The notes under the pieces were generated by a model, which was not told where the DNA came from, ran no database searches, and saw only the letters and a program-made list of their open reading frames with translations. From the NCBI GenBank assembly GCA_025449115.1, contig JAHLKC010000024.1:62001-126000 (forward strand): a stretch of DNA of 64,000 nucleotides, given 5' to 3'. This stretch comes from Chytridium lagenaria (taxonomy: Eukaryota > Chytridiomycota > Chytridiomycetes > Chytridiales > Chytridiaceae). Numbering within the stretch: position 1 is the first letter of the stretch; every line of letters begins with the position of its first letter. The translations under genes were made by a program, and so were the position numbers. Shown here in pieces: positions 23,946-29,985 of the stretch.

Positions 23946-26900
23946 TCAATCGCTACCAATTGTAATTAAACCTTCAACAATTAATAAAATGTTATCATTT
24001 TTTTCAAACCTTGATAATAGTGTTGACGCTTCATTCATATCCTTTTGTGCCCTTTTCCGCATGTAAAAAATGGGACAATCTTGAGCGCTGCAAATAATAT
24101 CCTGATGCAAGGAACCCTGACATCTTTGGCATTGCGTCCAAAGTTTTCGAAAATTTCGCCTCCAGGTCGTTGAGTGATTGCCGATTTTTCTCATATAACT
24201 CTTGCGTTTTTGGCTTGCAGTTCTTGCAAACAGCGGACTCCACTAAAAGGCAAAGATTTCTTTAGATAAGTAGGGAAGCGACAACAAACAGCAAATAACA
24301 TATACAGAAGGCTTAGGGTAAGTTAGAAAAAAACATACCGTTCTTCGGCAATGGCGTTTTGCATCCAAGGCAGGTTGCAGTACGCACCGCAAATTTCATC
24401 AAAGCGCCAGTTGCAGGTGCCGCGACTTGGATTTTACGAACATGATCGCCAGCTTGTAAAGTTAAATCGGCAATACACGCATTCTTACAAAAAAGGGTGC
24501 TTGCCTTTTCCCCAAGGATTGGCTCAAATATTCGCATCACGGGATTGGCAAGCTGGTTCTCCAAGTAATATTTTGTGTCGATTGGAAGATTGTTCTCAAG
24601 AACGTAAAGGGGGTCTTCTGCCTTCTCATATGCGGCAGCGTCTTATAAACATGAGAATTTTCATTACAACTAAGTCTCACCTTTTGTTCCTTTTATAATA
24701 ACATAGGACACACGATCACCAGTGCTTGGAGCAGAACCTAAAAGGACATGGTTATTGTCATCAAACGAAGAGGACGAATAAAAGCAATATATCAAAACTA
24801 GGCATGAAGATACCTGAGTCTCGTTTTCTCATTCTCTCGGCAAGCTCATTGTGAGCCTGCTTCCCAGCATACTCTATTACAGTCAGTTTAATGATTTGAC
24901 GTTGTCGAACCTGTTTTGCCGAGTGCTTTAGAAATCACCAGCTGCGATAGATCTATTTTATTTTGAAGGAGCTCGGCAATGACTTTCTTAACATAACTGC
25001 TCGAGTCAATATTAAATCAACTCAATATTATTACTTCTCTGCTCCTTTTACATCTCTCTCGATTAAAAGCTTTTTCAGACAAGTATCAATGACGACTGAA
25101 ACCATACGGCAACTATCACGACGGACAGTCTAAAAATTTAAGATCCACCAGAAACGGATAACCTACCTCAATACCCTTTGCATCCAGCTTGTCAAACTTC
25201 GTTGGGTTGCTCCAATATAAACCGGCGTACTTCTTTTACTAATCAAAAGGTATGGACAATAGACTTTCTCAAAATCCAGATTGATTGGCCTTATAAAGTG
25301 GCCAGTGACGTAAGCTGCTGCCTCTCGCCCTAAAAAAAAATTCAATAAAGATTGAAGGTAAGAACTTTTTACCTAAAGCCATAGCCTCGCCCACATCTTT
25401 CGGGCCAAACTTCACCATTACGGAATCGGTATCTCCGTAAATGACCTAACATGGTTATAGTGATAGCTACGTTCAAAAACATACCCTCGCATCATGCTGA
25501 TATCCGTTTTTTATGCAAAACTTTTCTTCAACGAGCTTGAAAGTTAAGCAATCGCCACTGATCGAAACGAGATACCAGTTTGGTTTTGTCAATCATCTCA
25601 CGACCATATGCAGTAACACTGGATGAAATGGCCAGCAGAGGTAACTTTCCCACGGTGGCTCCTGTGAAGCCATAAACTGAATTTGCACTGATCTAAAAAG
25701 AATTAATGGAGAGAAGTCAACGATAGAACCTTCAATGCTAATTGACGTCCATCTAATACAGCCTTGACAAATGGATCTGTCGCTTTCTTGAGATCAGCCT
25801 TCGCCCGCTTTCTGGCTGCTAAGAGATCCTCAAGAACTGTCGGTAGCAGCCCCTTACGCAGCTTTGGCTTGACAAAAATATCTAAATGTGAGAATAAATT
25901 AATAGTGTTTGTACCGTTATTAGGAGTTATATCGTATTCGTCTTCTGAGAGTCCCAACTTCCTCACAGTCGCGATGTCTGGTAAATATGTTGAATAGCAT
26001 AAATTATGTGCCATCATAATAGAAGGATATAGTGATGTAAAATCGAGGGTGGCAATAGGATCTTCATAGAATCCTTTCTCGGGTTCGATGACGATAGCAC
26101 CTTTAGGTGATCAATAAACAGCATGCAACACATTTTTTACCTTCATATTGTTCATCTGAGCCTTCAGAGTTTAGGCTGGGAATGAGAAGACCCTCGTCAC
26201 GTGCTTTTCGATAAAGTTGTGAAACGACTTTAATTTGTTGCCCTCGGGTTAGCAACATGTTAAAAGGAACGCCCGTCACTCTTGCCATCTCAATATAGTT
26301 AATCATACACATGAGTTTATCCAAAAGGCGCTGTGGTAAGTATGCATCCTGAGGAGTTTAATCAAACAACGTTATGGAACTAATCATACCTTCAAGCAAT
26401 AATGGCTAGCCTTCGTCGAGTTTCTTCGTTGCCGTTTTGTAAATCTGCGATGATGGAATGGTGCACGTCTTCCTTTTGTTCGCCTAATCATTTATAATAA
26501 AAACTTAAACAAATCATTGTTCTATCTCCGCGCTTACCTAAGAAGTGAGCACTAACAGAATTTAAAGAATACGACCGAAGTTTGTAATCTCTCTGCATTA
26601 GCTGCAGAAGATCAACTTGAAGTCTGCCTTCCAAATGTAATTGGGAGTTAAGAGAATAAAGAAGAAGGTATGAAAAAACTATGAATTGATAAATGAATAA
26701 GGATATTGATTGCTTTGTTGTCTCTCGTTCCAAAGGCTTTGGACGAAAAACGTGTATCTTTCGCCTTCGTCTGCCATCCTGATTTATTTCAGTAGCGTTT
26801 TGAATTCTTTCAAACCTTTAATACGGCCGAGAAAGGGAAAATCATTGATTCCGAGCTTAGTGGCACGATCCAAAAGGTATGGAAAATCGAAATTTGTGGT

Positions 26901-28284
26901 GTTGTAGCCGATAATCACATCAGGGTCAACCTATAAAATTAGGAGTATCTTGACTTCTACTCATACAGTTTCGACGAATTCCCGCCATTTTCTCAAAAGA
27001 TCTCCTTCCATATCAAAACATAGAGTATGAGTTCCCACGATGTTGGCACACTGTTTAAGTGTGAAAACATTTCGAATAAAAGGTTTTTGCTGTCCTAACA
27101 TAGTATTTGCATGTAGAATAACGTGGTGATGTACCTTGAATGGTAACCATGTTTGCAATCTGAATAACGGGATCTTCTTCGGCGTCCGGGAAGACTCCCT
27201 TTCTTCCAGCACATTCAATATCAAAACTTAGAATTCGAAGGGGTGCCACTTTTGACCATTCGTCCTCAGGATCATGCGACATAATATGCTCAAAGCTAAA
27301 GGAGTTTAAATAACAATAATTGGAAAGGTACGGATTCTCACTAGACATCAACTTCGATCTGGCAATTAGATATCTTATTGCTGGCGTTGCGAACGGTATA
27401 TTTGTTCTTCGGAAGAGTGAGCCAATTAGCGCCGACTATCTAAAGCGAACGTTAACTATCAGATAGCGCCAAATTAATTGACGTACTTTGGTATCAATCA
27501 TAAATCTTAAAGTGAAGGGTATATTGCTTTCAAAGGTCGTGTAAGACCTATTAGGGAATCCGGGGATGTTCAGTCCATGCTCGAAGAGTCGCTTCGCTAC
27601 GGTCACTTGATCGGGGAAGCGTACATAAATTTGCAAGAACAGATTTGTGTCGGGTCCTTGATATCCGAAAATACTTTGCTTCATCACAAATTCAATGGAA
27701 ACAACGGCGGATCCGTGATTTTCCTGTCGCTTACTGTCGGTTCTGATGGCAGTCTTTTAAAGTTAAAGCAATAAATAAAACCTCAAACGTCAAGAGCTGT
27801 CCGGAATGCTGGGAGGTGGTTTTCGTTGAATCCAGGGGGTGCTGGGACGTAGAAATACGGAGAGAATCCATGTACATGACACACCACACTTCCACCTTCC
27901 TTCAACAGAGTAAGTTTCCTCGGGCCAATGTCGATACTCACATTGGTGGTCCCATACATTCGTAAAATGGCAGACTGTGAGAAGGTTGTTTTATAAAATT
28001 GCCGAGAGTCTCCAATAGTTTCGTCGATATCAAGTTGTTGAAATACTGGGGCAACCGTAAGTCTAATGATATCAAGCAACCCAACCCAAGTCTTCCATGT
28101 TGTTTATGTCACAAGGCTTCCTGGGCCACAGATCGAAATAGTCCGAACTAACGTCCATATCCTCCTCATGCATGCTTTGAAGTCTCTCCTCAAAGCTCAA
28201 TCCCTCAGACTTCCCAGGAACTTTCTGTCGTTTTAAGGGCATGGCAGGCACCGTGTCCGCATTGCGTTTTCCTTTGGAAGTCAT
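23946..28284 (-). CDS. POL3: DNA polymerase delta catalytic subunit
   Basis: B-family replicative polymerase, lagging-strand synthesis, nucleus. Start ATG at 28284 ([11 protein letters not shown]). The N-terminal part has [10 protein letters not shown], joined by a 40-nt intron, and [18 protein letters not shown]. The exonuclease has [12 protein letters not shown] (Exo I) and [17 protein letters not shown] (Exo II). Polymerase motifs are [10 protein letters not shown] (A), [10 protein letters not shown] (B) and YGDTDSV (C). The C-terminus has two cysteine modules, CLGC..CKNC (CysA, zinc) and CQRC..CSAQDC (CysB, Fe-S). More than ten introns, mostly 40-60 nt GT-AG; one at 26637-26706 is AT-AC of U12 type. 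Single-base frame breaks occur near 24155, 25240 and 26410, with both sides conserved, so they are probably assembly errors. Divergent from the ubiquitin-like gene, 62 bp between starts. Confidence 0.95.
26637..26706 (-). other. U12-type AT-AC intron in POL3
   Basis: In POL3 orientation the intron starts ATATCCTTAT, carries TTCTCTTAACTCCC near its end (putative branch A about 11 nt before the splice site) and ends ..AATTAC. Splicing it out joins GCAATCA to ATTTGGAAGG and gives [15 protein letters not shown], matching the conserved polymerase delta sequence. No GT-AG alternative keeps the frame. Confidence 0.85.
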
Positions 28285-28346
28285 GCTGCTGTCGTTCGTA
28301 CCGAGCATTGTCCGAGAGCTCAGAGTTTGTGGAACGCACACAAAAG
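28285..28346. promoter_or_regulatory. POL3 / ubiquitin-like divergent promoter
   Basis: Only 62 bp separate the two opposing start codons, so the two genes must share promoter elements or overlap in their 5' UTRs. No TATA box is evident. Confidence 0.5.

Positions 28347-29952: not shown

Positions 29953-29985
<33 letters not shown>

Follow-up and report, generated by a model that had tools for sequence, protein, structure and literature searches.

The window analysed here, a 64-kb stretch of DNA, carries POL3, the gene for the catalytic subunit of DNA polymerase delta (Table 1). In a protein search with POL3, Chytridium lagenaria (Chytridiomycota, Chytridiales) came first among the best 120 of 4844 proteins at E<=0.001, and the public C. 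lagenaria POL3 protein (1035 aa) maps letter for letter onto the window, so at this locus the window is C. lagenaria or cannot be told apart from it, in agreement with the initial annotation, which had attributed the DNA to an early-diverging fungus. An automatic gene model of POL3 was poor, and the mapping of the public protein, in which all 27 introns are GT-AG and no donor is GC, was used in its place. The earlier statement that the other POL3 introns are all GT-AG fits this mapping, although one of the 27 overlaps the AT-AC intron described below. The public protein is also without a conserved 22-residue stretch that is coded in the window DNA; since the model has such further flaws, not all 27 introns need be real. 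A long A run was observed between two genes, at about 29953-29982 of the window.

Table 1. Features of POL3 in the window and of the candidate minor snRNA loci elsewhere in the genome.
Feature	Position	Strand	Details
POL3 (DNA polymerase delta catalytic subunit), extent as in public model	23953..28308	-	
Putative U12-type AT-AC intron of POL3, phase 1	26637..26706	-	70 nt, ATATCCTTAT...TTCTCTTAACTCCCAATTAC
5' splice site of the AT-AC intron	26697..26706	-	ATATCCTTAT
Branch site of the AT-AC intron	26647..26656	-	TTCTCTTAAC
3' splice site of the AT-AC intron	26637..26638	-	AC
Exon upstream of the AT-AC intron	26707..26778	-	
Exon downstream of the AT-AC intron	26538..26636	-	
GT-AG intron of the public POL3 model, overlapping the AT-AC intron	26628..26679	-	GTTTTTTC...TTTGGAAG
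U6atac candidate (L001 1501-1650)	C23:22439-22588	-	Rfam 32.9 bits, cut-off 33
U11 candidate (L039 1501-1772)	C173:27606-27877		Rfam 37 bits, cut-off 39
U12 candidate (L040)	contig C21, 99026 onward		Rfam 32 bits, cut-off 53
U12 intron 1 (model)			117 nt, GTTTGT...CTGATGATTGCAG, read from sequence
U12 intron 2 (model)			98 nt, GTAAGA...CTGAC...TTTTCAG, read from sequence

The initial annotation had proposed a U12-type AT-AC intron in POL3, and this stretch, one of 13 distinct candidates kept from the genome, fits that class in its 5' splice site, its branch site, the distance between branch A and intron end, and its terminal AC. The 5' site follows the U12-type form (A/G)TATCCTTT, and its claimed match to the consensus holds overall, except that position 9 is A where ATATCCTTT has T. 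The branch site is TTCCTTAAC-like and lies at the short fixed distance of U12-type introns, the branch A being the second A of CTTAAC (26648), 11 nt from the AC end, much as had been described; the terminal pair is one of the two, AT-AC or GT-AG, that U12-type introns use. At the predicted junction, AAAGCAATCA is joined to ATTTGGAAGG, and the reading frame KAI|NLEGRLQ is regained in phase 1 once the 70 nt are taken out. The joined peptide can be aligned with Pol delta of yeast and human and with chytrid orthologues, for example those of Chytriomyces and Obelidium, and is kept by many fungal orthologues, which bears out the claim that excision restores a conserved polymerase sequence. Searching the window with the pattern ATATCCTT-N25..55-CTTAAC-N5..14-AC, we obtained one match against a mean of 0.01 expected (100 shuffles, one of which matched); the 5' motif alone is unremarkable, RTATCCTT occurring seven times against 4.1 expected. 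Together with the companion introns and snRNA candidates described below, these features make it highly probable that the stretch represents a genuine U12-type (minor) AT-AC intron of C. lagenaria, removed by the minor spliceosome.

The public gene model implies a different reading, in which POL3 is spliced through the overlapping GT-AG intron and the AT-AC ends arise by chance. That intron is open in frame and is present in the public protein; however, it adds ILIHLSIHS and drops the conserved NLEG kept by many orthologues, since it runs across the AT-AC intron and causes part of it to be translated. Such splicing would also leave the 5' site, the branch site, their distance and the AC end unexplained, a combination expected 0.01 times per window, and equivalent introns interrupt conserved domains in other genes. 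We regard this reading as very improbable and favor the AT-AC intron, by which the public POL3 model would be wrong at this place. The POL3 models of Phlyctochytrium planicorne and Dinochytrium kinnereticum break at the same exon boundary (FLGRVKGRLQ and FLGRVKEGRLQ, respectively), which hints that these two chytrids share the AT-AC intron. Counting that of C. lagenaria, the public POL3 gene models of three chytrids (P0001, P0002 and P0004) are broken at this AT-AC site.

Across the genome, the pattern TATCCTT-N25..55-CTTAAC-N5..14-A(C/G) gave 69 matches versus 45 for the backwards pattern, a modest excess. By hand count, the 69 matches amount to 51 start sites, of which 41, comprising 39 distinct sequences, were read. 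The base before TATCCTT, free in the pattern, was A in 21 of the 39 distinct sites, and CC or TC before CTTAAC, likewise free, was present at 14 of the 21 distinct A-preceded sites versus 2 of the 18 preceded by C, G or T. From these we kept 13 distinct candidate introns, a motif-selected set of short introns chosen partly by eye, which measure 61-75 nt and all have the form ATATCC...AC. Whereas the ATATCCTT common to all 13 is imposed by the search pattern, position 10 was left free and is T in 13/13; a C stands before CTTAAC in 12/13, the exception being POL3.

Joined peptides from ten of the 13 introns were scanned, of which seven passed the Pfam cut-off (zf-HIT, Spc24, two BRCT stretches, CLP1_N, DNAPKcs_CC3 and DNA_pol_B_exo1), one fell just below it (FancD2, 24.9 bits versus 27) and two were without a match. 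All eight matches span the splice junction, and the CLP1 and ZNHIT1 joined peptides match solved structures (PDB). Judging from the joined peptides at L033 and L013, this chytrid may have genes of the DNA-PKcs-like and FancD2-like kinds. Two of the introns, at C6:173819-173886 and C6:177507-177579 (minus strand), interrupt BRCT stretches 3.7 kb apart, possibly in one gene. Second copies on other contigs were found for 3/13 introns: two pairs are identical over 200 nt, and the third differs by three substitutions and one indel in the intron, none of which touches the splice signals (5' site, branch site, 3' end) or the exon parts shown. These duplicated loci lie on contigs C24/C142, C3/C210 and C5/C211, as in a partly duplicated (two-haplotype) assembly.

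Among the five G-preceded sites read, none was a convincing GT-AG minor intron (the frame test covering the sites other than L022 and L035). L015 lies inside an open coding frame, the frame reads through L050, L014 has no AG within the scored range, and L022 and L035 combine weaker branch sites with an AG beyond that range. A further site, L058, resembles the AT-AC class and was left out of the 13 for its branch distance of 14 and its length of 53 nt.

Minor introns have been reported earlier in Rhizophagus irregularis (205), Basidiobolus meristosporus (249), Spizellomyces punctatus and Neocallimastigomycetes (PMC10639083), and in Rhizopus and Phycomyces (PMC2846911). The POL3 intron would therefore add one chytrid to an already known list of minor-intron hosts, and the initial annotation's use of it as a pointer to an unusual fungus is weaker than was thought, given the reports for Spizellomyces and Neocallimastigomycetes. 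C. lagenaria resembles the early-diverging fungi of these sources in its U12-type 5' and branch sites, in its minor snRNAs (here candidates) and in its position outside Ascomycota and Basidiomycota. By contrast, GT-AG is reported as the commoner subtype in most species, whereas all 13 introns kept here are AT-AC. At the human AT-AC share of about 26%, such an outcome would be very unlikely, although the present sample was selected by motif, confined to short introns and kept partly by eye. The same source gives 77% AT-AC (196/253) for the minor introns of Blastocystis (PMC10639083); C. lagenaria shares this strong enrichment, in a sample that is small and motif-selected, but Blastocystis is an unrelated organism, with minor introns much shorter than those described here.

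An snRNA search, which the initial annotation had named as a check, yielded candidates for U11, U12, U4atac and U6atac, each of them below its Rfam cut-off. With these sub-threshold candidates for all four, the genome does not appear to be devoid of U12-type snRNA, the situation that had been held to speak against the intron. The 14 control genomes of the snRNA searches carry no information here, being prokaryotes; weak matches turned up in some of them too at the lax E-values used. The U6atac candidate carries AAAGGAGAGA and a terminal T run, with a TATA box lying 41 nt upstream, and the catalytic AGC triad of the Rfam consensus is replaced in it by GGC; a second U6atac match (L002, 26.3 bits), without AAAGGAGAGA, was set aside. 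The U11 candidate has the 5' end AAAAAGGG and the motifs AUCAAGA and GCAUAAU. Inside a stem is an insert of >100 nt with a predicted fold of long hairpins (fold z -3.6), and this insert was rejected as an intron and read as structured RNA.

For U4atac, the candidate L041 scores 27.5 bits against a Rfam cut-off of 53, and a second match, L042, scores 24.4 bits. As L041 scores higher with the U4 model (33.2 bits, itself below the cut-off of 46), it might be a major U4. Nevertheless, GAUCUCUGUCUCUGUUUCGAGG at its 5' end and an AUUGCC in it are complementary to CCUCGGACAGAGACGG and GGCAAU of the divergent U6atac candidate, forming a predicted stem II of 17 pairs (-27.7 kcal/mol) that is matched by only 1 of 24,538 other 40-nt windows; we consider the U4 assignment improbable and treat L041 as a putative U4atac. 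A U4atac motif search built from the U6atac candidate returned 17 sites, none of them U4atac and one the U6atac gene's own complement.

Minor-spliceosome proteins, another check that had been named, were not identified with the two probes used, which covered 59K/PDCD7 and 65K/RNPC3 out of the specific proteins 65K, 59K, 48K, 35K, 25K, 31K and 20K. The PDCD7/59K (PF16021) profile gave no match in the genome at E<=1, the prokaryote control genomes being equally silent, and with the human U11/U12-65K (RNPC3) RRM probe five RRM matches were obtained; the three that were read (3/5) look like other RRM proteins.

AT-AC ends by themselves are no proof of minor splicing (PMC3584512), and the POL3 intron could on that ground be removed by the major spliceosome. 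However, minor introns are defined by their 5' site and branch site, both of which fit the U12 class in POL3 and in 12 further introns, and candidates for all four minor snRNAs exist in the C. lagenaria genome. We give removal by the major spliceosome very little credence and retain the minor spliceosome as the highly probable agent. Divergent yet complementary minor snRNAs, together with motif-selected introns that are all AT-AC, may provide a natural test of drift in minor splicing.

At E<=10 no other U12 match than this candidate was obtained, 42 out of 2345 first-look candidates having been scored, and a DNA search showed one copy only, besides some short matches to repeats. Its main exon starts with GAUAAUAAC and holds stem-loops, an Sm-like site and AAUUUUUG; a GCCUCUUUUGC loop lies near GCCUACUUUGC, and the elements stand in the right order. 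The DNA does not carry the canonical GUAAGGA as one uninterrupted stretch; it appears only after removal of GT-AG introns. Upstream of the main exon, GCAGTAAG is followed by the strong donor GTAAGAAG, and CTTGTTTTCAG directly precedes the main exon, such that removal of this second intron would give GUAAG|GAUAAUAAC. A donor preceded by GTAAG occurs in 0.2% of shuffles of the U12 upstream region.

We modelled the locus with two introns, as an 18-nt exon, intron 1, a 4-nt exon (UAAG), intron 2 and the main exon. The resulting join, AUUUGUCUCGAUUUUGAG-UAAG-GAUAAUAAC, agrees with 10/11 canonical bases, and 0/2000 shuffles reach 9; the model was conceived after the sequence was seen, and the 11-base yardstick agrees with the overlapping part of the Rfam consensus. 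A one-intron model agrees with 7/11 bases, a value reached by 6.9% of shuffles, and a single long intron was rejected because UAAG would be lost. The mature 5' end is predicted near AUUUGUCUCGAUUUUGAGUAAGGAUAAUAAC with two introns and nearer GAUUGCAGUAAGGAUAAUAAC with the second only. Between two readings of this 5' end, both formed after the sequence was seen, TTGCATAAACTGG was dropped for ATTTGTCTCGATTTTGAG because of the latter's closer TATA spacing, canonical length and UGAG|UAAGGA match.

Alternatively, L040 may be a decayed or partial U12 copy, the real U12 lying elsewhere or having been missed, with the introns read into it being accidental. This would accord with its sub-threshold score (32 of 53 bits), with the need for a 4-nt exon, with the agreement of the one-intron model being reached by 6.9% of shuffles, with a modelled start that follows the TATA box by 32 nt, where U11, U4atac and U6atac have 35-44 nt, and with the weak pairing predicted between U6atac and the modelled 5' end (-5.1 kcal/mol, no control run). 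On the other side stand the uniqueness of L040, its ordered structural elements, and the scarcity among shuffles both of the GTAAG-preceded donor and of agreement approaching that of the two-intron model. We hold a decayed copy to be a tentative possibility, on the doubtful side but deserving consideration. To the fuller reading we give roughly even chances: a single-copy U12 gene would be split by two major-type introns flanking the 4-nt exon UAAG, the core of GUAAGGA, with stepwise maturation, a minor spliceosome dependent on the major one, and introns placed where reverse splicing would put them. That only the second U12 intron is real is somewhat more probable than the two-intron form.

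The POL3 intron and its companions in other conserved genes, together with snRNA candidates able to pair with each other or with these introns, can be read directly from the DNA, and they suggest a mechanistic model in which the candidates are presumably expressed, assembled and used. In this model, U11, through its 5' end AAAAAGGG, would pair with the POL3 5' splice site, while U12, carrying GUAAGGA after the loss of its own introns, would pair with UCCUUAAC, leaving one A bulged. The U4atac/U6atac duplex would deliver U6atac (AAAGGAGAGA), and splicing at the AC would regain the exonuclease-domain reading frame of POL3. U12 itself may mature stepwise, removal of intron 1 joining UUUUGAG to UAAG right before the GUAAGA donor of intron 2. 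Both U12 introns would lie at places expected from reverse splicing into the RNA of an active spliceosome. If the split U12 is true, the major spliceosome must act before the minor one can recognise branch sites. It would also explain how U12 can come out as weak or absent when snRNAs are searched for with standard models.

Five U2 matches and seven full-length U6 matches above the cut-off were found in the genome, without an intron-sized insert in any, suggesting that the splitting of snRNA genes is not a general habit here. The U2 snRNA gene of Rhodotorula hasegawae reportedly carries an mRNA-type intron; U2 is the major counterpart of U12, yet a different RNA, and the five U2 matches of C. 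lagenaria are full length and unsplit. The U6 snRNA gene of Schizosaccharomyces pombe contains an mRNA-type intron attributed to reverse splicing (PMC10484740), and the U12 candidate resembles it in having a GT-AG intron near functionally critical nucleotides of an snRNA gene. S. pombe U6 is, however, an RNA of the major spliceosome, whereas the C. lagenaria gene would be U12, in which two introns seem to be separated by 4 nt within the branch-recognition element. Fungal U3 snoRNA genes likewise carry introns, four genes having two per transcript, and the same 2017 paper states that among small structured RNAs only U3 and U6 often contain an intron (PMC5832005). The likeness to the U12 candidate lies in a small structured RNA gene being split, sometimes by two introns, but U3, unlike U12, is not a spliceosomal RNA. 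No intron in U12 and no split U12 gene was found in the literature searched, outside which lie most subscription papers. If the split U12 is true, a minor-spliceosome RNA joins the case for intron entry into snRNAs by reverse splicing near catalytic or recognition sites. Separately, a partial U6 match (positions 1-58) was observed at C54:61411-61469, with a full-length U6 match at a distance of about 5 kb.
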